From positions 1 to 64,000 of the forward strand of contig JAGWIK010000012.1 of NCBI GenBank assembly GCA_028866275.1: a stretch of 64,000 bases of DNA, in the 5' to 3' direction. Shown one piece after another: positions 7,640 to 57,785 of this stretch (position 1 is the first letter of the stretch; the number at the start of each line of letters is the position of its first letter). The notes below the pieces were generated by a model that searched no databases, was not told the origin of the DNA, and worked only from the letters and a program-made list of their open reading frames with translations. The stretch comes from Alphaproteobacteria bacterium. GTDB lineage: Bacteria; Pseudomonadota; Alphaproteobacteria; UBA9219. Both the position numbers and the translations under genes were made by a program.

Positions 7640-8788
7640 ATGTCCAAGCCAAGTATATTGATACCTGTCGGATTGCCCGGAGCCGGTCTTCACGGCGTTG
7701 GTTTTGTTCCGTGCAGGGGAAGCGACGCCACGCATCAAAAAATCGAGATGTTGGCTCAGGCCATGCGCGGTCTCGATATGGATGTGGCGGTGGCGCCCAT
7801 CGATGCCGCCGCGTCTTATCAGAAAGTGGATATGGTGATTTTTCCGCTGGCTGCCGATACGCTCGACTCCCCGGCCGCGTTCCGGGATGTGGAGAGGCTT
7901 TATCATATCCCCGCCGGTTTGCGCGTCGGATTGGTGGGGGGAAGTTTTGAAGCCCTGAACTGGCCGCGCCGGGCAGGAACGGCCAATGATAATATGGCCG
8001 CCGATCATGATGCGGGCCTGATTCCTCCGCTCGATGCGATGGTTGTTCTCGGCGACGAACGGCTGGTCAAATTGCCCGCCGCCGTTTGCCGCCGGATGGG
8101 CGCGGCCCATATACATTTTGTCGGCTATGCGTCACGGGATGATTGGGCGGGCATATCGCCGCCGCAAAGCCGGATCGGGGCTGCGCCCGCGCCGGTTATT
8201 GTACATGCCGACAACCCCGATGTCATGGCGGCGGTCGCCGAGGCCTGGCCTTCGACACAGATGGGGCTCATAGGCCGTCCCTGGCATTTTCTTTTCAGGG
8301 ACGCACCGGATCATTCATCCGCGCACAGGTGGTTGCGGCTCGCGTTCGAAATCAGCCGCGACCGCGTAGAAGCACAGCGGGCTGCGTCCGGCTGCTCGTT
8401 TCAGGATGAGCTGAGGGGGGCGTCGAGAGACGAGTTGCGCGACCTGTTGCGCCGCGCCGCGCTTTCAATTTCTTCGGCGGAGCCTGAACGCATCAAGGAC
8501 GCCCTTGCCGCCGCGCGCGTTCGCAGACAGGGCCGTCCTTTGTTGATGCCGGTTGACGCGGTACAGCGCCAATATTGCGCGCAGCTGCAAAAATTGGAAG
8601 CTGCGGCGGTTGTGGGCTTTGAACCGAGAAAGAGAGATTTGGCCGCCGCGATCGATCGCGCATTCGACAGCGCATTCGATACTGGCCCCGCTGTGCCGGT
8701 TCGTTTTGCCACGGTTGAAGACGTCGCCGGATTCTTGCGCGACATGGGCCGCGCAAGACTGCCCAAACCGAGGATGGCGCAGCCATGA
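7640..8788 (+). CDS. Hypothetical protein, 382 aa
   Basis: This protein is not recognised. The N-terminal half shows alternating hydrophobic strands and Gly turns (SILIPVGLPGAG, DMVIFPLAAD, LRVGLVGGSF, AMVVLGDERLV), suggesting a Rossmann-like alpha/beta fold. The C-terminal third is helical and rich in Arg, Glu and Ala. A TANDN element occurs near residue 115. A GGAGGG ribosome site supports the start. Its TGA overlaps the next gene's ATG by four bases (ATGA), so it is translationally coupled to the glycosyltransferase-sulfotransferase fusion and may act in the same surface modification. Confidence 0.65.
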   Translation: MSKPSILIPVGLPGAGLHGVGFVPCRGSDATHQKIEMLAQAMRGLDMDVAVAPIDAAASYQKVDMVIFPLAADTLDSPAAFRDVERLYHIPAGLRVGLVGGSFEALNWPRRAGTANDNMAADHDAGLIPPLDAMVVLGDERLVKLPAAVCRRMGAAHIHFVGYASRDDWAGISPPQSRIGAAPAPVIVHADNPDVMAAVAEAWPSTQMGLIGRPWHFLFRDAPDHSSAHRWLRLAFEISRDRVEAQRAASGCSFQDELRGASRDELRDLLRRAALSISSAEPERIKDALAAARVRRQGRPLLMPVDAVQRQYCAQLQKLEAAAVVGFEPRKRDLAAAIDRAFDSAFDTGPAVPVRFATVEDVAGFLRDMGRARLPKPRMAQP

Positions 8789-10320
8789 CCGGGAACAACA
8801 ACATCAAAACATCGGGTGTAATTGCCATGTCTAAATCCACGCTTCCCCGCATCGCCTTCTGCACCACCTGCAAAGGCCGCGCCCACCATTTGGCCAAAAC
8901 ATTGCCGCAGAATATGCGCAACAATGCCGATTATCCGAATGCCGTCTTTGTCGTGCTTGATTACAACAGTACCGACGGTCTTGGCGATCATATGCGCCGC
9001 ACTTTTGCGGCCCCAATGGCAAGCGGAAGGCTGGCCTATTATCACAATCCGGAACCGCAGCAATTCCATATGGCGCATGCCAAGAATATGGCCGCCCGTG
9101 CCGGGATTAGGGAAGGGGCAGATGTTCTTGTTAATCTCGACGCCGACAATCTGACGGGCGCCGGATTTGCGTCATATGTTGCCGAGGAATTCATACGCGC
9201 GCACGAATCCGAAGACGCCATTTTCCTGAGAGCGGGCGAGAATCATGAAGGGCCCGGTGGCGGTGTAAGCACAAAAATGCCGCAAGGGTGCGGCGGCAGA
9301 ATTGCCATCACGGCACATGCCTTCATGTTGACCGGCGGATATGACGAAGACGAAGCGTTCCGGCGCTGGTCGCCAGATGATAAGGATTTTGCTCTACGTC
9401 TGACTAATCTTGGTTTTGTGCGGCATGGCATGCCGGATCGGTTTAAGAAAGCGATTGGGCATAGTCAGGACTCGCGGCTGGCCGGATATGACATGCTCGA
9501 CAGGCAAAATATGGGGGAAATATTCCACTCCATTATGGAGGGGCGTCAAAATATGACCGTTGCCAACAATGGCCGAATGGGAATGGGCGTCGTCTACAAG
9601 AATTTTGATCCAGATCCTATTATGTTTGACGCTCTGCCCACACGCATATTCGGTGTCGGGATGCACAAAACGGCAACGACCTCCCTGGCTGCCGCTTTGG
9701 GAATTCTGGGATACGACACGGCCCATTGGGAGTCGCCAAGATGGGCGTTCAGAATCCATAGAGAGATGACGGCGCAGGGTCGGTCGCCTATGTTGGAACG
9801 GCATTATGCGCTGTGCGACCTTCCTATGCCTCTTCATTTTAAGGCGCTTGATAACGCCTATCCCGGTTCCAAATTTATTTTGACAACAAGGGATGAAGAA
9901 CCATGGCTGCAAAGCGTCCGCAATCACTGGCAAAGATATAGGAAAAAATGGGACAGGGACGGCTATTCGCACAAAATCCATGAAGCGCTTTATGGCCGCA
10001 CGGATTTTGACGAAGATGTTTTCCGTGCGCGTTATCGGGCGCATAACGAAGCGGTTATGAAACATTTTATGGGCCGTCCCGGCGATCTGGTCGTCATGAA
10101 TATGGATAGAGAGGCTGGGTGGCCGGAATTGTGCAGGTTGCTGGGACGTGCCATGCCCGGGCAACCTTACCCAAGAAAATTTGTTACGCCGCAACCGGAA
10201 CCGCAACCAAAACCCCAATGGAAACCGGCGGCGGCGGTCACGGTGCAAAGATCCGTTCCACCCCGCCCCGCCAACACGAACCTTCCCGCACCAAAGGAAA
10301 AAAACGTCCGCCCCGGTTAA
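8785..10320 (+). CDS. GT-A glycosyltransferase fused to sulfotransferase-like domain
   Basis: This 511-residue protein has two domains. Residues about 20-270 form a GT-A fold glycosyltransferase: IAFCTTCKGR at the start, VVLDYNSTDG, the metal-binding VNLDADN (Asp119 and Asp121), and an RRWSPDDKDFALRL acceptor-side segment. Residues about 288-470 start with IFGVGMHKTATTSL, a PAPS-binding 5'-phosphosulfate loop, and continue as a Sulfotransfer-type domain with ILTTRDEEPW as the likely 3'-phosphate region. The last 40 residues are Pro/Gln/Lys rich. It may glycosylate and sulfate one acceptor. An internal Met at residue 15 is an alternative start, but the 4-base overlap with the preceding gene favours 8785. 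Confidence 0.8.
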   Translation: MTGNNNIKTSGVIAMSKSTLPRIAFCTTCKGRAHHLAKTLPQNMRNNADYPNAVFVVLDYNSTDGLGDHMRRTFAAPMASGRLAYYHNPEPQQFHMAHAKNMAARAGIREGADVLVNLDADNLTGAGFASYVAEEFIRAHESEDAIFLRAGENHEGPGGGVSTKMPQGCGGRIAITAHAFMLTGGYDEDEAFRRWSPDDKDFALRLTNLGFVRHGMPDRFKKAIGHSQDSRLAGYDMLDRQNMGEIFHSIMEGRQNMTVANNGRMGMGVVYKNFDPDPIMFDALPTRIFGVGMHKTATTSLAAALGILGYDTAHWESPRWAFRIHREMTAQGRSPMLERHYALCDLPMPLHFKALDNAYPGSKFILTTRDEEPWLQSVRNHWQRYRKKWDRDGYSHKIHEALYGRTDFDEDVFRARYRAHNEAVMKHFMGRPGDLVVMNMDREAGWPELCRLLGRAMPGQPYPRKFVTPQPEPQPKPQWKPAAAVTVQRSVPPRPANTNLPAPKEKNVRPG

Positions 10321-10940: not shown

Positions 10941-13289
10941 ATGACCGCGCAATCAACCTGTTCCCCATCATTTGCGACGACAGCTGCGACCGTGGCCTAT
11001 CCGCCGGGATCCACTATCGTCGATCAGGTATTCAAAACGCTGGCGCGCGAAGCCGGCTATGCCGCCGGCCTTTTCGAATTCACCGGCATCGGCAACGACA
11101 ATGAACAATATTTCGATAAAGACGCGCACCCGGAGTCCGAAGTTATCAAACATCTGGTTGCGCTCGGCACCGCCGTTCTTCTCAATCGGTATCGTGGTCT
11201 CGGCTTGTGGTACAAGCCTGAATCTATTACCAGCGGATTGCTGGCGCACGAAGTCGCCGACGGGATCAATCAGGGCCGCCGTGCCGCGGGGCGTGGCGAT
11301 CTTATCCCGTCGACCTATGACCTTGGTTCCAGAATCGGCAAGGATCGTTTGCGCCACGAAGTGATAGGTCCCAACCGTTTTGTCAATCTGATGCGTTCCC
11401 ATCACGCGCAGAAATTAATGCCTTATGTCTATCTGGTTGTGCCGTTGATGCTGGAAAGCGCGGTGCGCGAACTGGTCAACAATCCCGCGCTCAGCGGCAT
11501 GCAGGAGTATGAAGAAGAAGCCTTTATGCTCGAATGGCGTATGGTTATTCGTCATTGCCGCGGCATGCTGGTCGATGGCGATCCCAGATTCTCGCGCAAT
11601 TCGATTTGGGAAGTCGTGGAAGGCGTGCTGATTCAAGCCGGATTGATGCCGCCGCGCCCCGAGGCCGACATGGACATTCTTGATGCCAATCTCAGGCCCA
11701 TGACCCTGCTTGACCATGCGCGGGATATGGCCGAATGCCTGCGCTATCAGCTCGGCAAGGGGTTCGAGCCGCGCGAGGCCGCCAGCGCTTTGGCGATGTT
11801 TCGTACGATCGACGTTATGTTGCGTGCGAATGATCCGCGTCTTGCGTACGCCAACGCGGCGCTGCGCGACCGTCCGCCTGTCGAATTGGCGGCGATGGAC
11901 GATTTATATGAAGAAATCGATTCGCTGATTTGCGCCTATGCCGCAGGCTGGCTGCGCGACCCCGATGATCTGCTGCCGCTTTACGGCGCGGCTTATTATG
12001 CGGCCCGAAAACGCGAAATGAAGACGGGCGATCTTCATCGGCCTTTAAGCGCCGGCGTGCGGCGCGAGATGAAAAAATATGCCAACGATGTGGTTAAGCG
12101 CAAAGGCGCGATTGTCCGCGGCAAGCTTAGCGACGAAAACCGCTTTCTCTCGAACCATACACAGACGCCGAACCAGCGCCGCTTTGATCCGGATAATGCG
12201 CCCTTTGCGCCGTGCTGGCACGCCGTTATGTTCGAAGACAAATTGTTCGACCGGTTGCAAGCGTGGGAACAAGCGGTTCTGCCGTTTATCATCGGCTATG
12301 CGGAGGCCGTGCAATATCCCGCCGAAGAACCAATGGCGACCATGATCATTGCCGATTTGAAAGGCGGTGAAGCTGCCGCCCAAGCCGCCGCCGAACGCGG
12401 CGTTACCGATATCAATGAATTGCACGGCGTCATGGGGCGCAGCGCGCGCATGATCGAAAGGGCCAATCGTGCATGGGTCGAAAAGACCGAACACGACCTT
12501 ATTAACGACAGGCCCCATCGCGTTTTTATCAGCACGCTTGATCTGCTTCATGACGCGAAACTCATCGACATGTTCCGCAAAGCCTGCCCGAGTTTCATTA
12601 TGGCGCGCGGATCCAATGCAACCAGCCCGTTGTTCCGCCTCGTTTACGCGATGAAAACCCTCGAACGCAACGCCGACGAAGCGATTTTCCAGAAAGGCTG
12701 GGAACATCGCGATTATACGGTGCAGTTGCGGGTGCATGCGCGCCTGATTCAGGCGGGATTGATCGACCGCCCCATCACGGGGGGCATCGCGCTTCAGGTC
12801 TATACTGGCGATAATAAGAATGCACAGGATTCCATGCTGGTCGATGTGTCGGCTTTGACGCGCAAGCTGGAAAAATGCGCCGCCGCCGGTGTGCGCGCTC
12901 CCGAACAGGCATTGGCGCTGATCCGGTTGCTGGCGCTTGACGATCTGATCGTCGATACCCGTCTGGGCGAGGGCGCGGTCAGGATCGACCCCCATGCCGG
13001 TTGCGTCAGCTGGATGGATTATGACAGCGATGCGTTTCTGAAAATACGCGCCCGCGCCATGGATGTGTTGGCGGCGCGCCCCGAATTATGGGCGGTGGAT
13101 CGTGAACGGCTGGTCGCCGAAGCGGGCAAAGACGACGCGCCGCCGCGGCAGCAGGCGATCAAGGTTCAGAACCGGCTTATGGAAAAATATATGCGGGCGA
13201 TGGAGGCCGGATCAGGGCGGCAGGCAGTGCGCAAGGCGCGGCCGGGGATAAGAGGCAGGGCGCATGTTTTTAACGGTCCTCAACAATAA
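10941..13289 (+). CDS. Large unknown protein, first gene of the giant-nuclease triad
   Basis: This 782-residue protein matches no family I know. It is mostly charged and helical, with no signal peptide or transmembrane segment. Acidic and aromatic patches such as EYEEEAFMLEWRM and a late WMDYDSDAF are notable; no nuclease, ATPase or helicase motif was found. A GNDNEQ element near residue 52 echoes the NDN motif of its neighbours. Its stop is 11 nt before the next start, which has a strong AAGGAGGT ribosome site, so it shares an operon with the RNase J-like and ExoI-like genes. A scaffold, RNA-binding or regulatory subunit of a nuclease complex is plausible but unproven. Confidence 0.7.
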   Translation: MTAQSTCSPSFATTAATVAYPPGSTIVDQVFKTLAREAGYAAGLFEFTGIGNDNEQYFDKDAHPESEVIKHLVALGTAVLLNRYRGLGLWYKPESITSGLLAHEVADGINQGRRAAGRGDLIPSTYDLGSRIGKDRLRHEVIGPNRFVNLMRSHHAQKLMPYVYLVVPLMLESAVRELVNNPALSGMQEYEEEAFMLEWRMVIRHCRGMLVDGDPRFSRNSIWEVVEGVLIQAGLMPPRPEADMDILDANLRPMTLLDHARDMAECLRYQLGKGFEPREAASALAMFRTIDVMLRANDPRLAYANAALRDRPPVELAAMDDLYEEIDSLICAYAAGWLRDPDDLLPLYGAAYYAARKREMKTGDLHRPLSAGVRREMKKYANDVVKRKGAIVRGKLSDENRFLSNHTQTPNQRRFDPDNAPFAPCWHAVMFEDKLFDRLQAWEQAVLPFIIGYAEAVQYPAEEPMATMIIADLKGGEAAAQAAAERGVTDINELHGVMGRSARMIERANRAWVEKTEHDLINDRPHRVFISTLDLLHDAKLIDMFRKACPSFIMARGSNATSPLFRLVYAMKTLERNADEAIFQKGWEHRDYTVQLRVHARLIQAGLIDRPITGGIALQVYTGDNKNAQDSMLVDVSALTRKLEKCAAAGVRAPEQALALIRLLALDDLIVDTRLGEGAVRIDPHAGCVSWMDYDSDAFLKIRARAMDVLAARPELWAVDRERLVAEAGKDDAPPRQQAIKVQNRLMEKYMRAMEAGSGRQAVRKARPGIRGRAHVFNGPQQ

Positions 13290-13300
13290 GGAGGTAGTAA

Positions 13301-16300
13301 ATGAGTGAAGGGAATTCCCTGACTCTTTCGAAAAAATACTTCCTGACCCAGCTTGGGTTCGACCACGACTCCGCCGCTAATGGCTGGCCCTCCACGATTA
13401 AACTTGCCGTTGGCGGCGTTGATCCGCGTACGCGCGGCGCGGTGGCGGTTTCTTCCGAACTAACCTACAACGCCGCCGCGCAGCGCATCGAATTGACCAT
13501 AGATCGCTGGCGCATGCGCCCCAACGGCGAACAGTTGCGGCACAATTTGTTTCAATTCACTTTTGTCGAAGCCGCCAACGATAGCATTGTGCCGCAATCT
13601 CTGTGGGTGATGGGGCGGCCGCTTTACGATGCCGGACGCGACGGCGACCCGCTGGCGGTTTCGGCGGGCGTAATGCGCAACGTCGCGACGGGCCGTTCGG
13701 CCGCCAGCTACATCATCCGTGCGCTGCGCCGCGATGAATTGCCCGAAACCGCCAGAATATTCCGGGAAACCGGCCTGCCCGAAGCGATGGGCGAGAATCT
13801 GCCTTTGGTCGGGCAGAGCACGAATGGCGGTTTCGATTTCGACGTGTTCGAAGCTTATGCCAAACCCGCCAATGACGATTTAATCCTGCCCGCCGATATG
13901 GCCAGAGCCTTGCTGGGGGAAGACACCAACAGTATCGATGCGCATCAACGTCTGGGGCGGGAACGCATCACCACTGCCGTTCATCCGCAAAACCGCAGCG
14001 AATTCGCCGCGCGTTATGTGGCAGCCAATGACAATGACGGCGAAAGCGGCGCAGTGGCCAGTTCGATCACCATCGAACCGATCGCCATCCCTGACGATAT
14101 GCGCGCCGTCGCCATTCCCGAATTCTCGTCGATGAGGTTGGAGCCGTCAAGCAACGACAATCGCCGCATTTTGCAGGAATTCAAATTTCTCGGCGTCGAT
14201 ATCCTACGTGTCGATCACGATTTGCGCATGAAGGTCATTGGCGTGGTCAACCGCGCCAAGCAGGCGTTACGCCGTCGCGATTATCCGCGCATTCTGGATT
14301 ACGCCGCCGAATATGATTTGCTGGGCTGGATCGATGCCGTCAATGCCGCCGATCTCGCCGATCCGCCGCCGCCCGAAGGGCGCATGGTGGTGGAATCGAA
14401 AGGCGGCAACAACACGGCCGACGATATCGCCGAAGGATACAGCCACCAGCCCAACGGCAATTGTAAAGTCATCGAGATGCAGTGGCTCGATCGGGAAGGT
14501 CGGCTGCGCCATGTCGGCGCGCTTCACGATATCGGTCTGTTCCTGCCGCCGCATGATGTCGCCAATGAAGGCGCCGTCGCCGATGTCGTCGAGGAACTGG
14601 CTTATATTCGGGATATCTTTCTGACGCATCGCCATCTCGACCATATTGACGGCGCCATTCCTTATATCGCCAAGGGTTATTTCAAGGGCAAAATTATTCA
14701 CGCCGCGCCCGAAGTCCTTCGGGCTTTGCGCGAAAAACTCAACGCATTCGAAATCCCCGCTGAATATCATCCGGCCTATGATGCGCTTCAGGGTCGCGGC
14801 TGGGTGCATATTAAAGATGACGACGGCATTGTCCGGTTGTCCGTCGGTTACAGCGTCGACGGCACGCCGCATACCGCGCGTTCCACGCCTTTCATCTATG
14901 TGGCGCGCAATGGCTCCGAAGTCATTGACAGCTATCTTAACCCGGGTGACATGCGTTTCGGCCGCCACAATGCCGAAGGCTATCGGGGATTCAAGCCTGA
15001 CGCCGATTATCTCGACAAATATTTTTTCCAGCATTGGCAGGAATTATTGCTGGCCGACGATCCCTCGATCGACGCCTCGGTATTGCAGTTTCCCACACTG
15101 CGCATGGATATCGACGGCACCTCGATCCGCAAACCCGGTTTCGCGCCGACCGACTGGGAATGCGAAGAAAATCAATACGAATTATTCGAGGTTCTGAACG
15201 ATATTCTGCCCGGCCGGTTAAATGCCGTTGGCCAGATCAGCACCAATGAAATGGGGTTTGAACATCGCTTGCGTCTGGCCACGCGCTTGGGCCGCGACGT
15301 CACCGCATCCGGCGCCAATATGGAACGAACGGCACGCACCGCCAACGTCATGGGGGTCAACAAATTGCGGGTCGAAGTGCAGAAGACTAAAAACAATCAA
15401 GCCTATCTTGATTACGTTTTCCGTCAACGCATTGATAAACGCTTGCGGGATTTGCGGTCGCAAATAGATGGAACCGCTGAAGGTAAGGAAAGAACGAGGC
15501 TTGAACGCGAATGGGCGGTTGAAACGCGCGTCCTGGATTATTTTGAGCAATTGTGCCTTGTCAAACAGTCCAATCGCCGTTTTGAGATGCGTGATAAGCT
15601 TGAAGCCGCGTTTGCCGGGGAATACGGCGAACACCGGCATCTCGGGTCTATCTATACGGCTATTGCCGCGAAATCCTCGCGCCGCATGCTGCGCCAGCCG
15701 GAATGCTGGTTGACGCTTGAAACCGGAACGCAAGGCACCAATGTTGAAATCGATTCCAGCATGTCAAAGCGGTCTTACGGCGCATCGCGTTTCGATATGC
15801 CGGCCGGCAGCAAGCCGAGCGCGCGCCCCATTCCGCCGCAGAAAACCATTTTATGTTTGTCGCAGGTTGCCATTCCCGGTAATGACAAAAAACAGCGCGA
15901 TCTGGTTTCCCGCCATGTCATGCGCGGCTATGCCGTTGTGCTTGCCACGCATGATGGTTATGAAATCCACGGGCTTTCCCTCCATGATATGAACCGGGTT
16001 TTCCGGGCGTTGAATGCCATCGGCCACGGCGCGGAAATAGAAAACGATGCGTATCTTAAAATAAACGGCAGGCCAATTCACGCTCCCGGCCACGGTTTCG
16101 CGGGGGATACGGAAGAATGGCTCAGGCTGGTCAAACCGATTTTCCCGATGCTGCAACATACCGGCGACCCGCTGGCCTTCCCCGAACTTCGCGAAATGTC
16201 GATGAAGATTCTGGGCCGCACCGCTTATTATTTCGATAATTTCTGTCGCGTGACGACGCAAAGAACGGATGATGCGTTGGGCTGGCTGGTTAAAACCATG

Positions 16301-16699
16301 GGGCGTTCGTGCCCGTCGATTATCCGCTTCATTATCGATCGCAAATCGCGCGAATATCACGGCGGCCATATCGAAGCCGAACGCATCACTAACATGAACG
16401 GCGCGGCAAGCCACCGCCATGACGGATTCATGGCGTCGGTCACGCGTGACGGTGTCTATCGCCGCCAGTTTGCCACCCTCGACGGCGAAGCGGCGCGACG
16501 GCGTGCGGCGCTGCGCAAGGGTGCGCCGCCGCAACCTGTCGCCTACAACCGAAAAGCGCCCGCTCCTGAACAACGTTATCGCGGCCCCGACCGCCCCGGC
16601 GCGCACAGGCGCAATCTGCCGATGAAACCCGGCGCGCGGTTGCGCCTGACGCCGGGTGATTATCTGAAGCTGTTAAAATTATCGGGGCCGAAGCCATGA
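13301..16699 (+). CDS. Giant RNase J-like metallo-beta-lactamase/beta-CASP protein
   Basis: This 1132-residue protein has an RNase J-type core at about 390-960. The metal motif THRHLDHIDG gives His443, His445, Asp447 and His448. GTPHTARSTP supplies His524 (RNase J motif 3), and PGDMRF supplies Asp550 (motif 4). The beta-CASP part follows: ISTNEMG plus LGRDVTASGANMERTAR, then ETGTQG near 807, VAIPGND, and APGHGF with His931. All metal ligands expected of an active enzyme appear present. It differs from the usual length of about 550 by a 390-residue N-terminal extension, a basic insertion at about 690-790, and a basic C-terminal tail. It overlaps the next gene by 4 nt. RNA 5'-end nuclease activity is inferred. 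Confidence 0.8.
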   Translation: MSEGNSLTLSKKYFLTQLGFDHDSAANGWPSTIKLAVGGVDPRTRGAVAVSSELTYNAAAQRIELTIDRWRMRPNGEQLRHNLFQFTFVEAANDSIVPQSLWVMGRPLYDAGRDGDPLAVSAGVMRNVATGRSAASYIIRALRRDELPETARIFRETGLPEAMGENLPLVGQSTNGGFDFDVFEAYAKPANDDLILPADMARALLGEDTNSIDAHQRLGRERITTAVHPQNRSEFAARYVAANDNDGESGAVASSITIEPIAIPDDMRAVAIPEFSSMRLEPSSNDNRRILQEFKFLGVDILRVDHDLRMKVIGVVNRAKQALRRRDYPRILDYAAEYDLLGWIDAVNAADLADPPPPEGRMVVESKGGNNTADDIAEGYSHQPNGNCKVIEMQWLDREGRLRHVGALHDIGLFLPPHDVANEGAVADVVEELAYIRDIFLTHRHLDHIDGAIPYIAKGYFKGKIIHAAPEVLRALREKLNAFEIPAEYHPAYDALQGRGWVHIKDDDGIVRLSVGYSVDGTPHTARSTPFIYVARNGSEVIDSYLNPGDMRFGRHNAEGYRGFKPDADYLDKYFFQHWQELLLADDPSIDASVLQFPTLRMDIDGTSIRKPGFAPTDWECEENQYELFEVLNDILPGRLNAVGQISTNEMGFEHRLRLATRLGRDVTASGANMERTARTANVMGVNKLRVEVQKTKNNQAYLDYVFRQRIDKRLRDLRSQIDGTAEGKERTRLEREWAVETRVLDYFEQLCLVKQSNRRFEMRDKLEAAFAGEYGEHRHLGSIYTAIAAKSSRRMLRQPECWLTLETGTQGTNVEIDSSMSKRSYGASRFDMPAGSKPSARPIPPQKTILCLSQVAIPGNDKKQRDLVSRHVMRGYAVVLATHDGYEIHGLSLHDMNRVFRALNAIGHGAEIENDAYLKINGRPIHAPGHGFAGDTEEWLRLVKPIFPMLQHTGDPLAFPELREMSMKILGRTAYYFDNFCRVTTQRTDDALGWLVKTMGRSCPSIIRFIIDRKSREYHGGHIEAERITNMNGAASHRHDGFMASVTRDGVYRRQFATLDGEAARRRAALRKGAPPQPVAYNRKAPAPEQRYRGPDRPGAHRRNLPMKPGARLRLTPGDYLKLLKLSGPKP

Positions 16700-19600
16700 A
16701 AAAACGCGCGCAAAAGCCCTTGATTGACAGCGCATATTTGCAAAGCCTGCATCGGGCCGAAGATATCGGGCACCGGCTGTCGACAGGGCAATTGCTCGCA
16801 ACCGGCTATGATCTGGAAATGACCGATCTCGACCGGCTGTTTGCTTTTCCCACTCATTTTGCCGCTATATTGACCGGTATTGGTGGGCGCATTCTTGACA
16901 GCATCGACGTCAAGCCGCGCGTGCCCGAATGGGTCGTTGAGGCGCCGGCCGCCGCCGTGATTGTGCAAGCCTCGCCGCAGGAAATTCATTATGGCGAAGA
17001 CCGCGACCCGCCGCATATTGCAGCCGGAAAAATCGCATTCTGGTTTCGCACGCTCTATCGCCGCCTGTGGGACGCGCTGGACGATGAAAAAGAGCAAATC
17101 GCCTTGCAGGACGGCAAGACGGAAGAAGTCCGTCTCTATAAAATCCGCGACAAGGACGGACGAGTCCATATTTTTCGCCTGCATGATCAGGGAAAATGGT
17201 TGTCGATGCGCATCGCCGATGGGGTTCCGGACGATGGCCATGTTTACCGCGATGCCGGCAGGGGAAACGAAAAAGGCGCGCGCTGGAAAAAAATCGCGCC
17301 GCCGGCCATGGCCGGCGGGTTCAATAATATCCGCGCCGATGACATGTGGCTCATGACGCTGGCCTTCATGACCGGCAATGCCGACATCATTGTTTCGTAT
17401 CTCAAGAAAAACCGCCTGTTTCGCGTCGATGTCCGCGCCATCACGCGGGCGGCCGCGACGCTGAATATCAGGGGCGAGAACGGCATTCAGGCCGCCTATA
17501 CCATTAATCCTGCCACCGGACAGCGCTATGTTTCCTCGCGCCTGAGCGATTTGATGCTGGCCAACACGCATCGCGCCAATCCCGGGCGCGGGCTGCAAGA
17601 AGGCATCCGCATGCCAGACGGATCATTTTACGAAGAACGGCTTGGCCACCAGAACCCGCTTTACGATGTGCTGGCGACTGAATCCCTGCTGGCATATAAC
17701 CGCTGGCATGATCCGGAAGTGGTGGCGCAATTCGAAAAAAACGCCGATCTGGAAAAATTAAAAAACTTCCTGATGGGCAATGACGGGTTCAATCCGCATC
17801 CGCTGCGCCTGTTTTTGCGTTCGGTCTATCCCGACCTGCAACAGGCGAATATCGGTATTTGCGCCGTTCTGGGCGAGGAAATCAAGGAAAGGCAGCAAGG
17901 GCTTTTTATCCGCACCGACACCAACGCCGCATTGGCGGCGTATACATATCGCGGCAAGCATCTGCACGATATGGATGCGGATGAATGGCACGCTATGCTG
18001 ACCGAGCAGCGCGGCCAGCCCGATGCCTTGTGCGAAATTATTGATGTGCGCAAAAGCCCGGCGGTTTTCGAATCGTCATTGGGTTTTGCGCGCGGCTTGG
18101 GCGGCGACCCGGACTGGAACGAAACGGTCAACCGTAAATATCTGCTGGAATTGCTGGCCAATCCTGATATCCGTGCGCGCATCAAGAATGCGCTGGAACG
18201 AACAACGCCGGTTTTTTCCGGCGCGGACGATGTGCTGGCCCCGCGCGCCGAGGACCATATCTTTGAGCACTTCCGCGAACTTAAACGGCTTGATTCCGGC
18301 GCGCCGCATGGAAAAATTGTCAATAACGACGATGTCGACAGCCACGCCATGGAAACATTGCGTCGTGCGCGGGATATTCGGCGTACTTTGCTGCAAGCCA
18401 TGGAACCGGATCCGGTTGAATGGTTCGATGAACTGCCCGACGGATGGCGCAGGGAAACGGTGGAAAAATTCGCCGAGAAAATCACCAAGATCAAAAGCTA
18501 TCTGCGCCACCGCCAGACAGATTACGATCCCGAACCCGTGCAATTACCCGACCCGGACAATTCCTATCGCCTGGCGCACAAACGTGACGCGGAAGGCGCC
18601 CCGGTTGAACCCGACGACGAAGCCATACGGAAATGCGCTGATGCGGCGGTCGAATATCTGTGGAAAATGCGCGCCGCGCTGATGCATGCCGCTGACGATT
18701 ATTCGTTGAGTTTCCGCATCACCGATCGTCACGGTCACGAGGTGCCATTCGATGTTCTTGACAAGATGGACGAACATATAAGACGCAACAAGCTGGCCAA
18801 TGGCGAGTTCCGCCCGCGTTTTGAAAACCGCAATTATACCGCGGAAATCATCGCCCGCATGTTCGCGACCACACCCGGGCGCATGGAAAAAACCAAAGAA
18901 GATTTGCAAAAGACCCTGATCGTCGCCGACGCCGCAGGCGATGATAAAGGAAGCCGAATGTTGAGGGATGAATTGCGGGAATGGGACATGTGGGACGCGC
19001 ATTTCGACGCCGTCGCCGCTTTGCACCTCAACGGCCCTCCGCATGTCGATCCCGACGATCATCGCTGGATGAGCGCGCGCAAGGGGCAAAGAGTTATCGC
19101 GCGTATCAGGCGCAATCTCAGGCTCGGGCTTGACGTCCGCGCCGACGCTGGCCAGCTGGGCCTGTGGGAAATCCTGATGACCGATCGCGACAAGAGCGAA
19201 CAAATTCTCGATGCGCTCGCCAAACATTATGATGCCATGCTGGAAAAATACCCCCTGACGGCCGAACGGCTGGACATGATGGGTTATGGCGTCGACGGCT
19301 GGCCTGTCGAGCATATCAAATATACAATTCCCGCCGGTGGGCCTGTGATTCTGGTCGATGTCGCCGATGCTTTTCTCGACCAGCCCCTGCATCATATCGA
19401 CGAAGGCAGTTATCTGGTTCCCGTCGCGACGGCGGATGCACCCGGGTTGCGTGCAGCGATGGCCGTTCTCGACGCCCATGTGTTGCTGCGTGGCCGCGAA
19501 AGCGGCCGCGTGTGCTATGCCGCCCGCGCCAAGATTATCGACGCCATCAAGCCGTCGCCGCATTATAATGTCCTTTATGAGGAAGCGCGCAGCCGCACCG

Positions 19601-20433
19601 CGGATTCCGGCGCGGCATTTCCGTCGAATGATGATCTTCTTTGGCTTAAAATGGAACAAAAGCCGATCGACGCGCCCTTGTCTTTGCGCGCGCCGGAAAC
19701 ATCCGCGCAAACGATCAAGATACGGCAGCGCGATCTTTTCGATGCCACCGTCAGCGAAGTTCTGGGCCGCCGCGCGCGCCTTGTGACCGGGCTTGTCTTC
19801 AAAGATGAAGGTTTCACGCCGCACACGGGCAGGGCGCGGTTGCAGGAAATGAGGCCGAAGAAAAAAGAACCGGCCGCGGCCAACGATAATAGGGCCAGTG
19901 ACGACAGTGCAGGCGCGCCGCGCTGGGTCGAAACCGGATGGGAACGCGCGGCGGAAATAACGACAGCCCGCAGCTATACGTGCGTCGAATTCCAGAACAT
20001 CGTCAGACGGTCGCTGAAATTGCGGCGGCTGGCTGCCCGACTGGGGCTGGACAACATTGATGCGTTGAGAAATTATGTCGTCAACGCGAGCACCGCGCAT
20101 GAAGCCGGGTTCAAGAATCTGGCGCAGGCGAGGCATGAACTGGACGCGCCGCATTTCACGCACGAAGACGCCTTGGCCTGCGGTCATCATAGCCTTGAAG
20201 ATATGGCGAAAAAGACGGCGTTGCTTTTTGTCGAAAATGACCGGAATCCGAATGCCGAAACCGGCATCGTGCATGTGGTGTTTTTCAAACAGGTGGCGCG
20301 CGATGCCACGACCTATTTCCGTCCTGCCGAACGTCACAAGGTGGAACGTCTGATGGCCGGGTTCGATCGTCCATTGACGGAACAGGGGCGCAAAAACTTA
20401 TGGGCGAATGCGGGCAAGGTGTTGAGACTGTAA
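16696..20433 (+). CDS. Giant exonuclease I (SbcB)-like DEDD exonuclease
   Basis: A 1245-residue protein. Residues about 37-570 follow E. coli ExoI by eye: YDLEMTD (Asp39, Glu41; motif I), FAAILT, ASPQEI, NNIRADD (Asp215 or 216; motif II), FRVDVRA, RLGHQNPLYDVLAT (Asp324; motif III), RKSPAVFESSLGFA, ANPDIRARI and a later HFRELKRLD. In motif III the His (318) sits one residue further from the Asp than the usual HxxxxD, so activity needs testing. There is an insertion of about 75 residues before motif II and an unrecognised C-terminal extension of about 650. ExoI degrades single-stranded DNA 3'-5'. The start overlaps the previous stop (ATGA), implying coupled translation. Confidence 0.72.
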   Translation: MKKRAQKPLIDSAYLQSLHRAEDIGHRLSTGQLLATGYDLEMTDLDRLFAFPTHFAAILTGIGGRILDSIDVKPRVPEWVVEAPAAAVIVQASPQEIHYGEDRDPPHIAAGKIAFWFRTLYRRLWDALDDEKEQIALQDGKTEEVRLYKIRDKDGRVHIFRLHDQGKWLSMRIADGVPDDGHVYRDAGRGNEKGARWKKIAPPAMAGGFNNIRADDMWLMTLAFMTGNADIIVSYLKKNRLFRVDVRAITRAAATLNIRGENGIQAAYTINPATGQRYVSSRLSDLMLANTHRANPGRGLQEGIRMPDGSFYEERLGHQNPLYDVLATESLLAYNRWHDPEVVAQFEKNADLEKLKNFLMGNDGFNPHPLRLFLRSVYPDLQQANIGICAVLGEEIKERQQGLFIRTDTNAALAAYTYRGKHLHDMDADEWHAMLTEQRGQPDALCEIIDVRKSPAVFESSLGFARGLGGDPDWNETVNRKYLLELLANPDIRARIKNALERTTPVFSGADDVLAPRAEDHIFEHFRELKRLDSGAPHGKIVNNDDVDSHAMETLRRARDIRRTLLQAMEPDPVEWFDELPDGWRRETVEKFAEKITKIKSYLRHRQTDYDPEPVQLPDPDNSYRLAHKRDAEGAPVEPDDEAIRKCADAAVEYLWKMRAALMHAADDYSLSFRITDRHGHEVPFDVLDKMDEHIRRNKLANGEFRPRFENRNYTAEIIARMFATTPGRMEKTKEDLQKTLIVADAAGDDKGSRMLRDELREWDMWDAHFDAVAALHLNGPPHVDPDDHRWMSARKGQRVIARIRRNLRLGLDVRADAGQLGLWEILMTDRDKSEQILDALAKHYDAMLEKYPLTAERLDMMGYGVDGWPVEHIKYTIPAGGPVILVDVADAFLDQPLHHIDEGSYLVPVATADAPGLRAAMAVLDAHVLLRGRESGRVCYAARAKIIDAIKPSPHYNVLYEEARSRTADSGAAFPSNDDLLWLKMEQKPIDAPLSLRAPETSAQTIKIRQRDLFDATVSEVLGRRARLVTGLVFKDEGFTPHTGRARLQEMRPKKKEPAAANDNRASDDSAGAPRWVETGWERAAEITTARSYTCVEFQNIVRRSLKLRRLAARLGLDNIDALRNYVVNASTAHEAGFKNLAQARHELDAPHFTHEDALACGHHSLEDMAKKTALLFVENDRNPNAETGIVHVVFFKQVARDATTYFRPAERHKVERLMAGFDRPLTEQGRKNLWANAGKVLRL

Positions 20434-20484
20434 GCAAGCGGAAACCAAATATCTGTAACAACCTTCAACCGACAGAGGATGTCT

Positions 20485-21453
20485 ATGACCGATCATGTTG
20501 TTCAACCAAGCCGTGAATCCAAAAATTTATTTTCATTGCCAGAGGGCGGATCGATTGTTTTTGATTTTGACGATGTCTTTTTCCCTTCCGACAACGGTAC
20601 GCACGCGCGGATTAAGGCGTTAATTACGCAGAGCGTCATTCGGGATTTGGGTGATAAATCCATTCTGGCCACGCGGGACGCCCACGGGCATCTTCCATAC
20701 TTCCCGCAATATGTTCTGTATAAATACATTGAAACCGGTCGCGACGCCGACAGCCCGGAATTTATCGAAGCGATGGAAAAATGTTATTTTGGCGACAATG
20801 GAGGCGACCCGGAACATTACAGGAATATCGGCCCGGCTCCGGAACTGTACGAGCAGTTGTCGCGCCTTCAAAGCGAAGGCGTCAATTTTGTTATTTTGAC
20901 AAGCGGGCCATACAACCCCCATGTGCAACGTGTTCTTGCCCGATTATCGACCGAGCGGGAAAACATTGAAGCCTTCTTTCCGCGTGAAAATATTTACGAT
21001 ATTACGCGGATGTGCGCCCTTTACGATGACGTGTCGCTCGATGACTTTCAAAATCCTACGCATGAAAAATTGCTTCGCTGGTTGAAACCTCAAAGGGAAA
21101 ACTACCTTGCCATGATGCATCAGGCGGGCCTTCAACCCGGGGTCAATCTTTATTTCGAGGATAACGATGTCAATGGCAGCAAAGGCAGCACGGCAGCGCC
21201 GATGCCTGAAGGATCTCTGTGCGCCTTTGCGGGCAAGTTCGGGCTGACTTCTGAACAGGCGGCCGATCTTGCCTGCTTATCCGATGCCTGGGGGTGGATT
21301 AATCTCGCAGGCAAGAAACTTCGCGATGGCAGCAGGCCGCCCGCACTTGAAGTGGCGAATGTGGTTGATGCTCTAAAGCTGGTTCGCGGCGGTCGGCCCC
21401 ATGCGCTCGCGCCAAAAATTGCGCGAGGCAGCATGCCCATCTGCCCGTATTGA
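20485..21453 (+). CDS. HAD-superfamily hydrolase
   Basis: A 322-residue protein. Motif I is FDFDDVFFP, motif II VILTSGP, a Lys is available in THEKLLRWLK, and motif IV is YFEDNDVN. The layout recalls pyrimidine 5'-nucleotidase-type HAD enzymes, but the cap region is unusual and the substrate is unknown. The start at 20485 is preferred over the ATG six bases earlier because GACAGAGG is then correctly spaced. It follows the ExoI-like gene by 51 nt and may be the last gene of that transcript; a nucleotide phosphatase after two nucleases would make biochemical sense, but this is inference. Confidence 0.7.
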   Translation: MTDHVVQPSRESKNLFSLPEGGSIVFDFDDVFFPSDNGTHARIKALITQSVIRDLGDKSILATRDAHGHLPYFPQYVLYKYIETGRDADSPEFIEAMEKCYFGDNGGDPEHYRNIGPAPELYEQLSRLQSEGVNFVILTSGPYNPHVQRVLARLSTERENIEAFFPRENIYDITRMCALYDDVSLDDFQNPTHEKLLRWLKPQRENYLAMMHQAGLQPGVNLYFEDNDVNGSKGSTAAPMPEGSLCAFAGKFGLTSEQAADLACLSDAWGWINLAGKKLRDGSRPPALEVANVVDALKLVRGGRPHALAPKIARGSMPICPY

Positions 21454-21493: not shown

Positions 21494-21622
21494 CTATTTT
21501 TGCTTGCCAACCTGTGGCTTGGCATTTCTTTGGCGGGCGGCTTCACCCTTATGGGCATTTGGGGGCGGTATAGTCAAAGTGCCTTCTTTCTTCTTGGCAT
21601 GTGCTGAGGCAGATTGGCGCAC
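21494..21622 (-). CDS. Possible small basic protein, 42 aa
   Basis: A GTG-started frame encodes a Lys/Pro/Ala-rich peptide whose middle reads KKEGTLTIPPPNAHKGEAA. The composition is protein-like and hydrophilic, and the frame fills the otherwise empty gap. It is back-to-back with the LigB gene. There is no good ribosome site, and an ATG 33 nt upstream in the same frame would overlap the LigB start. Treat it as speculative. Confidence 0.22.
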   Translation of the reverse strand: MRQSASAHAKKKEGTLTIPPPNAHKGEAARQRNAKPQVGKQK

Positions 21623-51701: not shown

Positions 51702-51741
51702 GAACAGTGCGAATTTTGATGAAGGATGTCCGCCCTGAAGA

Positions 51742-51855
51742 CCTGGCAGCGACTTACTCTCCCGGGCCTTAAGGCACAGTACCATCAGCGCTGGAGGCTT
51801 TCACGTCCGAGTTCGGGATGGGATCGGGTGCAGAACCACCGCTATAACCACCAGG
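51742..51855 (-). rRNA. rrf: 5S ribosomal RNA
   Basis: The minus strand starts CCTGGTGGTTATAGCGG and ends GCTGCCAGG, with the conserved CCGAACTCGGACGTGAAAG internal segment, giving 114 nt. It lies downstream of 23S in the operon, separated by a spacer of about 80 nt. Confidence 0.95.
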
Positions 51856-51935
51856 TCGTCAGGACGGACATCGTAAAATCGTAAAAGCGTGTTGTCGGAA
51901 GAAGAGGGCGGTTTTACGCCTTCGACCTCTGATAA

Positions 51936-54690
<2,755 letters not shown>

Positions 54691-55160
54691 AGCCAAACCC
54701 GAAGGGTTTGATACCGGCGAAGGCCGGTACCTAATCTTCAAAGAACGGTTTTCCTGTCGACAAGGGCAGGGGGTGAACCATTCAAGTTTGCGTCACGGGC
54801 TGACAACCTTAATCGCTACGAGAACGCCTTCGGGGCGTAGAATAGCGAAAGTGACTTTCTTCCGACACGTCCTGTTCCGTTTTCCCGCGTTTCAAAACTC
54901 AGCAGATTTGAAACAAAACGCAACAAGACACACTTTTACTTCTTCAACCAGCCATACGCCTATTGTCTGTTAATTGTGCCGCTGCTTGCGCATTGGCGAC
55001 GGAAAACAGACCGCATGACTGGTCGATGTCATCATCAAAATTCTTCACTATGTCCAAGAACATCCACAATCTTGCGACTGTGGAAACCGCTTTCTTCTTC
55101 AGGAAACAATCACGTCGCGTCCAATGTCGCGCCATAAAACAGCAGGGCAGGCCGGTCGAG
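54691..55160. other. 23S-tRNA-Ala internal transcribed spacer
   Basis: A 470-bp spacer of the rRNA operon. It should contain RNase III processing stems around the 23S ends. No further tRNA gene was found in it. Confidence 0.75.
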
Positions 55161-55236
55161 TGGTGGAGCCTATCGGGATCGAACCGATGACCTGAAGCTT
55201 GCAAAGCTACCGCTCTCCCAGCTGAGCTAAGGCCCC
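55161..55236 (-). tRNA. tRNA-Ala (TGC)
   Basis: The minus strand starts GGGGCCTTAGCTCAGC, has the anticodon TGC within CTTTGCAAG, the T-loop GGTTCGATCC and an encoded CCA, giving 76 nt. It lies in the 16S-23S spacer after tRNA-Ile. Confidence 0.97.
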
Positions 55237-55257
55237 GAACGCGCACCGCGAAAAAGG

Positions 55258-55334
55258 TGGTGGGCCTGGTAAGATTTGAACTTACGACCTCACGCTTATC
55301 AAGCGCGCGCTCTAACCAGCTGAGCTACAAGCCC
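55258..55334 (-). tRNA. tRNA-Ile (GAT)
   Basis: The minus strand starts GGGCTTGTAGCTCAGC, has the anticodon GAT within CTTGATAAG, the T-arm AGTTCAAATCTT and an encoded CCA, giving 77 nt. It is the first tRNA of the rRNA spacer. Confidence 0.97.
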
Positions 55335-55516
55335 GTTACGATACTTGCGCATGGGCGCAAGCCCGCTTAATAGCCCTAAGCTATTTTTGTTTCCTGAGAA
55401 GGGATACGACGACGGCGAACCGGAAGACAGAAGCTGTATCTGCCAACATAATATCAATAATCTGTTTCAGCGAAGAAGAGCTAAAGCTTGCGCCTGCCTT
55501 CTATTCTCTGAAATCC

Positions 55517-57008
<1,492 letters not shown>

Positions 57009-57670
57009 ATCTAGTTTTTTCAGAACAGCTTTAAAGCTTGTTCAAACTACTTGGTATTGCCGAAGCAACACCTTGAATTTAGGGTTATCATGTACGCGCA
57101 TCCTTGCGGATGCGTACCATAGTAACTATCAAGGATGCGTTTCGGCAAACCGTATACCATTGCTTAACCATTTCTGGCTAAGAAGGTTTTGGATATCATC
57201 GGCCAGTTCCCTATGCCCGAAAGCACGAGTTCCCACCGCGGATCGCCGTCTGCGCATCCCTTCTCATCATTTTTACAATGTCCAAGAACAACGCGTTCAT
57301 TTCTGAACGGACGGGGCTTTTAGACCCCATCGCACCGTTTGGCAAGCGAAAAAAAATCCTTGCGGTAAATCTGCTTTTTTGCAGAATTGGCCGCTTGGCT
57401 TATCGCAGTGTCAACAGTGCTGCTTTCGTCGGTCAGGCTTTGACCGCCGACAGGAAGGAACTTACTGATTCTCCCCAAAGATGTCTAGAGGAAAATTTAA
57501 AATTTCTTCATTATTTTTTCTTGACTCGTATCGGGTGCGGAATAGCGCGCGCCCAAGACTATAAAACCCCACCTTTTCTTGTGAAAAAAACGGCACAACC
57601 CGTAGAATAAAACGGGCATGAGAGACGCCTGCATGACTGTGCAGGGCTGCCTGTCCGGTGCGGGGACAAT
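57009..57670. other. rRNA operon upstream region
   Basis: This 660-bp region holds the leader and promoters of the rRNA operon (minus strand), bounded on the right by the tRNA-Tyr terminator. Open frames on either strand here are not protein-like. A weak promoter candidate is listed separately. Confidence 0.6.
57459..57487 (-). promoter_or_regulatory. Possible rRNA promoter
   Basis: On the minus strand TAGACA (57482-57487) is followed after 17 bp by TAAGTT (57459-57464), in an AT-rich context with AAAATTTTAAATTTT-like tracts upstream resembling an UP element. The match to the consensus is partial. Confidence 0.25.
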
Positions 57671-57697
57671 AAAAAACCCCCATTCAAGAATGGGGGC
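57671..57697 (-). terminator. tRNA-Tyr terminator
   Basis: The minus strand CCCCCATTC / GAATGGGGG stem is followed by TTTTTT, starting three bases after the CCA end of tRNA-Tyr. Confidence 0.88.
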
Positions 57698-57699
57698 GG

Positions 57700-57785
57700 T
57701 GGTGGAAGGGGGCGGATTCGAACCGCCGTACTCGTGAGAGGGCAGATTTACAGTCTGCTGCCATTAACCACTCGGCCACCCTTCC
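57700..57785 (-). tRNA. tRNA-Tyr (GTA)
   Basis: The minus strand starts GGAAGGGTGGCCGAGTGG, has the anticodon GTA within GACTGTAAATC, a long variable arm, the T-arm GGTTCGAATCC and an encoded CCA, giving 86 nt. The long variable loop with GTA fits bacterial tRNA-Tyr. Confidence 0.96.

Follow-up and report, generated by a model that had tools for sequence, protein, structure and literature searches.

Identification of a conserved two-nuclease operon

The window analysed here, a stretch of 64,000 nucleotides from the genome of an uncultured alphaproteobacterium of the lineage UBA9219 (GenBank assembly GCA_028866275.1, contig JAGWIK010000012.1, positions 1 to 64,000 of the forward strand), carries an operon of three large genes in which an RNase J-type enzyme is combined with a protein resembling exonuclease I (ExoI), a conserved unit that was previously undescribed. 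Both enzymes belong to the housekeeping set of RNA and DNA metabolism, and in bacteria they are not known to work jointly. The operon comprises gene 1 (P0001; 10941..13289; 782 amino acids [aa]), coding for a protein of two tandem repeats and no known family, gene 2 (P0002; 13301..16699; 1132 aa), coding for an RNase J-type metallo-beta-lactamase (MBL)/beta-CASP nuclease, and gene 3 (P0003; 16696..20433; 1245 aa), coding for an ExoI-like DEDDh exonuclease, all on the plus strand. Genes 1 and 2 are separated by 11 nt, a gap that holds a perfect Shine-Dalgarno sequence for gene 2 (AAGGAGG; 13288..13294, plus strand; read from the sequence), which overlaps the stop codon of gene 1. Genes 2 and 3 overlap by 4 nt, with the start codon of gene 3 contained in the shared ATGA. 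The three reading frames, their strand and their spacing agree exactly with a preliminary description of the locus. Chance open reading frames (ORFs) were excluded because the longest stop-free stretch in shuffled versions of the window (n=20) reached only 295 codons, and the three ORFs were accepted as true genes because their homologues keep a similar order and spacing. Scans for promoters and terminators performed no better on the window than on shuffled sequence.

The order gene 1, RNase J, ExoI was found wherever the contig allowed adjacency to be judged, most gaps falling in the range from -40 to +78 nt. Deviations were seen in three genomes in which gene 1 is placed last (G002, G031 and G032), in a locus whose genes 1 and 2 lie 749 nt apart (L028) and in a locus with a broken gene 1 (L073). 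Locus-to-locus identities were correlated across the three genes (r = 0.97-0.985), so that the genes co-diverge. About 13 further genomes, that of Micavibrio aeruginosavorus ARL-13 among them, encode the RNase J and ExoI parts as a single fused polypeptide of ~1570 residues (~1550-1605 in the fetched genomes). The ARL-13 fusion gene lies at L083:6292-11106 on the minus strand (G450 C1, about 2390291-2395105). Complete fusions were recovered from 11 fetched loci, with a 12th added later, while the copy in L088 is cut by the end of the fetched stretch. Aligned with the operon proteins by hhalign, it matched in the N-terminal extension (2e-25), the MBL core (6e-36) and the ExoI part (2e-42); no gene 1 was seen near the fusion genes. 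The conserved operon and the natural fusion make a shared job of RNase J and ExoI very likely, one that is directly testable in the culturable M. aeruginosavorus. The proposal that the three genes work as a unit is thus borne out by operon conservation, co-divergence and fusion, and their homologues, which might never have been met together in other genomes, are in fact neighbours.

The RNase J-type and ExoI-like proteins

Gene 2 alone yielded only sub-threshold MBL matches. A profile of 23 members retrieved Bacillus subtilis RNase J1 (PDB 3zq4; 3e-14) together with many other RNase J chains. The nuclease core (residues ~385-960) contains the MBL zinc ligands H443, H445, D447, H448, H524 and D550, which are invariant in the 23 homologues, and the beta-CASP elements motif A (TGTQG...E816), IPGND, motif B (H931) and motif C (H953), which are near-invariant. 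Gene 2 thus shares with RNase J (B. subtilis J1/J2; TIGR00649) the MBL ligands, beta-CASP motifs A to C and the IPGNE signature. It is unlike RNase J in being twice as long, owing to a 370-residue N-terminal extension, a beta-CASP insert and a C-terminal extension that follows the core. The N-terminal extension is itself duplicated (repeats ~39-165 and ~226-346; hhalign 95%, 2e-8). Against TIGR00649, gene 2 scored 12.8 bits (cut-off 400), its 1132 aa contrasting with an architecture of ~555 aa, and the Micavibrio fusion scored 93 bits. Its motifs place gene 2 with the RNase J-type enzymes, although outside the curated full-length definition of TIGR00649. A histidine in motif C is typical of RNA-acting beta-CASP enzymes and not of the SNM1-type DNA-acting ones; this residue and the IPGNE signature ruled out an SNM1/Artemis-type DNA nuclease. 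All 18 genomes that were checked for it, whether or not they carry the unit, also encode an ordinary RNase J of ~563 aa, and because of this separate housekeeping enzyme the RNase J of the unit is regarded as an addition, a specialised copy. The possibility that the operon holds generic housekeeping RNase J and ExoI genes was rejected on the same grounds.

Neither gene 1 nor gene 3 alone matched a Pfam family. A profile of 24 gene 3 members aligned with residues 15-359 of ExoI (5e-13), and the DEDDh residues D39, E41, D215, H318 and D324 are invariant in the 24 homologues. The aligned part (gene 3 residues ~33-520) comprises the nuclease domain and the ExoI accessory region downstream of it (ExoI 179-359), whereas the helical domain PF08411 at the C-terminus of ExoI was faint, with matches in 2 of the 24 members (best 0.0026). 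The remaining ~600 C-terminal residues have no assigned family. By sequence, the first half of gene 3 resembles ExoI; it shares the DEDDh residues, the nuclease domain and the next region with ExoI/SbcB (PDB 1fxx, 4jrp), which lacks both the ~600 extra residues and the operon or fusion with RNase J. The profile searches thus recovered the RNase J and ExoI relationships that had been proposed by eye, each with a complete catalytic set.

The duplicated gene 1 protein

Gene 1 matched nothing in Pfam, NCBIfam or the PDB, in line with its earlier description as unknown. It contains a tandem duplication (residues ~84-354 and ~465-756; hhalign 97%, 1.5e-11). W199, S218, E224 and G234 are invariant, S218 and E224 being found in repeat 1 of 20 homologues. 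Both repeats aligned independently with DUF4406 (E 4e-4 to 1e-3), in each case at the S-x5-E region, with hhalign probabilities of 20-37% over 25-44 columns and without the glutamate in repeat 2. Among the controls, the best of 38 unrelated windows gave an E of 0.054, and reversed sequences gave at least 0.27 by local alignment. The repeats may thus be weakly related to DUF4406/nucleoside 2-deoxyribosyltransferase-like proteins, which is a lead and no assignment, a match at the level of Pfam being missing. An initial set of true deoxyribosyltransferases did not match gene 1. AlphaFold modelling, from 3 sequences for gene 1 and 6 for its repeats, reached a confidence (pLDDT) of only 36 and 43. 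The resemblance to DUF4406 would suggest that gene 1 acts on (deoxy)nucleotides, either as a glycosidase or as a transferase, again as a lead only. The idea that gene 1 shares a module with the extensions seen in genes 2 and 3 was rejected, since hhalign found no similarity.

Distribution and evolution

Of the 24 genomes found to contain the unit of genes 1, 2 and 3, most belong to a single family, probably that of Micavibrio. Genes 2 and 3 occurred in the identical 4 of 33 genomes of the order to which the window belongs. Gene 1, and likewise gene 3, was recorded in 4 of 385 sampled genomes of the class; among 398 genomes drawn from the phylum, gene 1 was present in the genome of the window only. 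The module is thus no general trait of alphaproteobacteria. In the family that includes Micavibrio, members were detected in 31 of 104 genomes, by a search that misses some fusions; all five g307 (Micavibrio) genomes seen carry the fusion. No relatives of gene 2 were found in phages, none of gene 3 on plasmids and none on viral contigs, and an origin from these sources was rejected. The ExoI tree conflicts with the kinship of the genomes: the window and G002 gave a p of 1e-6 in the approximately unbiased (AU) test and two genera were split (p < 1e-40), with conflicts ranging from AU p 1e-6 to 4e-53. The unit has therefore either moved or exists as several old, paralogous lineages.

A conserved protein of 210-310 aa is encoded 7-48 nt upstream of the fusion in all five g307 genomes (L083:11119-12048; L081, L082, L085, L089), and its copy in L083 had no Pfam match. 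A 1426-aa protein of no known family (L037:12628-16905) adjoins a diverged copy of the unit and has a shorter relative in L080.

Association with genes of nucleotide catabolism

A gene for a HAD hydrolase (20479..21453, plus strand, 324 aa) starts 45 nt past gene 3. Its match to the pyrimidine 5'-nucleotidase family TIGR01993 (1.7e-7) reached 31 bits against a cut-off of 143, placing it in the HAD superfamily only. A HAD phosphatase lies directly 3' of gene 3 in the window and in L070. A cluster of DeoC aldolases (PF01791) is represented beside the unit in seven loci, either downstream on the same strand or divergently upstream, the divergent copies having been grouped by BLAST clustering only. 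A PF06189 5'-nucleotidase lies directly 3' of the fusion in 4 loci. Judging from its spacing and from the HAD, DeoC or 5'-nucleotidase genes at the equivalent place elsewhere, the HAD gene is the probable fourth member of the operon. The suggestion that it could act on released nucleotides gains from this recurrence and from its weak likeness to TIGR01993. The association extends beyond direct neighbours in the Micavibrio-containing family, where DeoC was present in 8 of 26 genomes with the unit, compared with 1 of 38 without it (p 0.002). The 5'-nucleotidase occurred in 7 of 9 genomes that have a fusion, often at a distance from it, compared with 4 of 55 that do not (p 2e-5). Use of the nucleotidase as bait showed that G431, a seemingly negative genome, encodes next to this enzyme a fusion of 1568 aa that had escaped the initial search. 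In another such genome (G460; L112), a PF06189 5'-nucleotidase is accompanied by no recognisable fusion within ~9 kb; large ORFs of 1002 and 1418 codons lie near it.

Possible functions of the unit

We favour, at about even confidence, the reading that the operon forms a cytoplasmic unit for RNA and DNA disassembly that feeds nucleotide catabolism. From its family, the accessory RNase J would be expected to act on RNA as a 5'-3' exo- and endoribonuclease, and the ExoI-type enzyme as a 3'-5' exonuclease on single-stranded DNA (ssDNA). The two enzymes would work next to each other, probably as parts of a single complex, and convert RNA and ssDNA to 5'-nucleotides. These would then be dismantled by gene 1 together with the variable neighbours (HAD/5'-nucleotidase, DeoC aldolase), and nucleic acid would thereby become a source of phosphate, sugar or bases. 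The likely feedstock in obligate predators such as Micavibrio would be prey nucleic acid. A cytoplasmic site is supported by the proteins' N-termini, where no signal-like hydrophobic stretch was found. A feeding role fits Micavibrio because M. aeruginosavorus is reported to be without known nucleotide transporters and to have many hydrolases thought to digest prey (PMC3189940). If true, this reading would help to explain how epibiotic predators without known nucleotide transporters use the nucleic acids of their prey. More doubtful is a complete pathway in predatory alphaproteobacteria and their relatives, in which nucleoside and deoxynucleoside monophosphates released by RNase J and ExoI would be cleaved by gene 1, as a double deoxyribosyltransferase-like enzyme, to base and (deoxy)ribose-5-phosphate, and the products finished by DeoC or nucleotidases, prey RNA and DNA being eaten as carbon, phosphate and bases.

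Several points weigh against a catabolic role. Gene 1 is linked to DUF4406 weakly (probability 20-37%) and below detection by Pfam; the co-occurrence p values ignore shared ancestry, weakening to 0.014 (DeoC) and 0.003 (5'-nucleotidase) at the level of genera, and the underlying member search misses some fusions. Some loci have no nucleotide-metabolism neighbour and carry genes for a ribosomal protein, rhodanese, adenylate cyclase or peptidase instead. The unit occurs in only ~30% of the Micavibrio-containing family, the organism of the window is not known to be predatory, and the model provides no route for prey RNA or DNA into the cytoplasm.

An anti-phage module, in which the paired nucleases would destroy the RNA and DNA of phages and a nucleotide trigger would be sensed or supplied by the duplicated gene 1 protein, appears unlikely. 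It would account for the patchy distribution (4 of 33 genomes of the order) and for the conflict between gene trees and kinship, whether this reflects a mobile unit or old paralogous lineages. The ExoI part also weakly resembles the RT-associated SbcB (RTasSbcB; 1e-5) of the DRT systems in PADLOC, and gene 1 weakly matches the candidate single-gene family PDC-S44 (0.0016); genes 1-3 match no PADLOC system beyond these two. DRT systems are like the unit in their ExoI-like accessory protein, but they have a reverse transcriptase (RT) whereas the unit has an RNase J, and no RT was detected among the best 25 of 140 Pfam families for 108 neighbouring proteins, in single-protein scans or with PADLOC. 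The PADLOC model PDC-S08 matched three neighbouring proteins (1.4e-58), yet the neighbours are mostly housekeeping, and the scattered PADLOC matches among the 108 include several to generic cyclases and sigma-54 activators. The surroundings are not evidently a defence island. The presence of the fusion in every g307 genome seen, the lack of relatives in phages and viral contigs, and the association with DeoC and 5'-nucleotidase also argue against defence. Nothing pointed specifically to the substrates put forward earlier (hybrids of RNA and DNA, nucleic acid of phages, or intermediates of the retroelement type), there being neither an RT in the listed neighbour families nor a phage or viral relative.

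Similarly low is the probability we assign to a complex for DNA repair or RNA-DNA processing, serving damage survival or R-loop turnover. Its precedent is the RecJ3/RecJ4-aRNase J complex of Haloferax volcanii, in which RNase J is combined with a 3'-5' exonuclease on ssDNA and RNA and which has a repair phenotype (PMC10470531). The unit resembles this complex in outline, the MBL and DEDDh active sites are both complete, and the fusion implies close spatial coupling. However, the Haloferax complex is archaeal, contains RecJ, which is unrelated to ExoI, and has neither a gene 1 nor a fusion; the unit, moreover, is accessory and patchy beside a housekeeping RNase J that is universal in the genomes tested, and its neighbours are genes of nucleotide catabolism rather than repair. 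Should defence or repair nevertheless prove correct, the unit would be a new two-nuclease system. Least probable is a lineage-specific machine that would mature or turn over transcripts of the cell itself, its ExoI part having switched to RNA. RNA can be a substrate of DEDDh enzymes, and H953 in motif C of gene 2 is the residue found in RNA-acting beta-CASP enzymes, but the constant presence of an ordinary RNase J and the absence of the unit from most relatives argue against an essential role in maturation.

Further features of the loci

A terminator-like stem-loop lies 3' of the HAD gene (21505..21524, plus strand); it is weak, and such matches are no commoner than in shuffled sequence. The neighbours in G167 also include genes for an RNB exonuclease and a SLOG protein. 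Near a fusion, a 739-aa protein (L029:14195-16411) has a C-terminal SLOG/LOG (LDcluster4) domain and a long N-terminus that resembles, by eye, an RdgB/Ham1-type nucleotide pyrophosphatase. Upstream of the operon, the window encodes a 511-aa protein (8785-10320) that contains a PF17784 sulfotransferase domain (1e-30), shows weak matches to glycosyltransferases and has a gene whose third-position G+C of 0.57 is below that of the other window genes sampled. A complete rRNA operon on the minus strand (16S, two tRNAs, 23S, 5S) is located, with a further tRNA, at 51741-57785.

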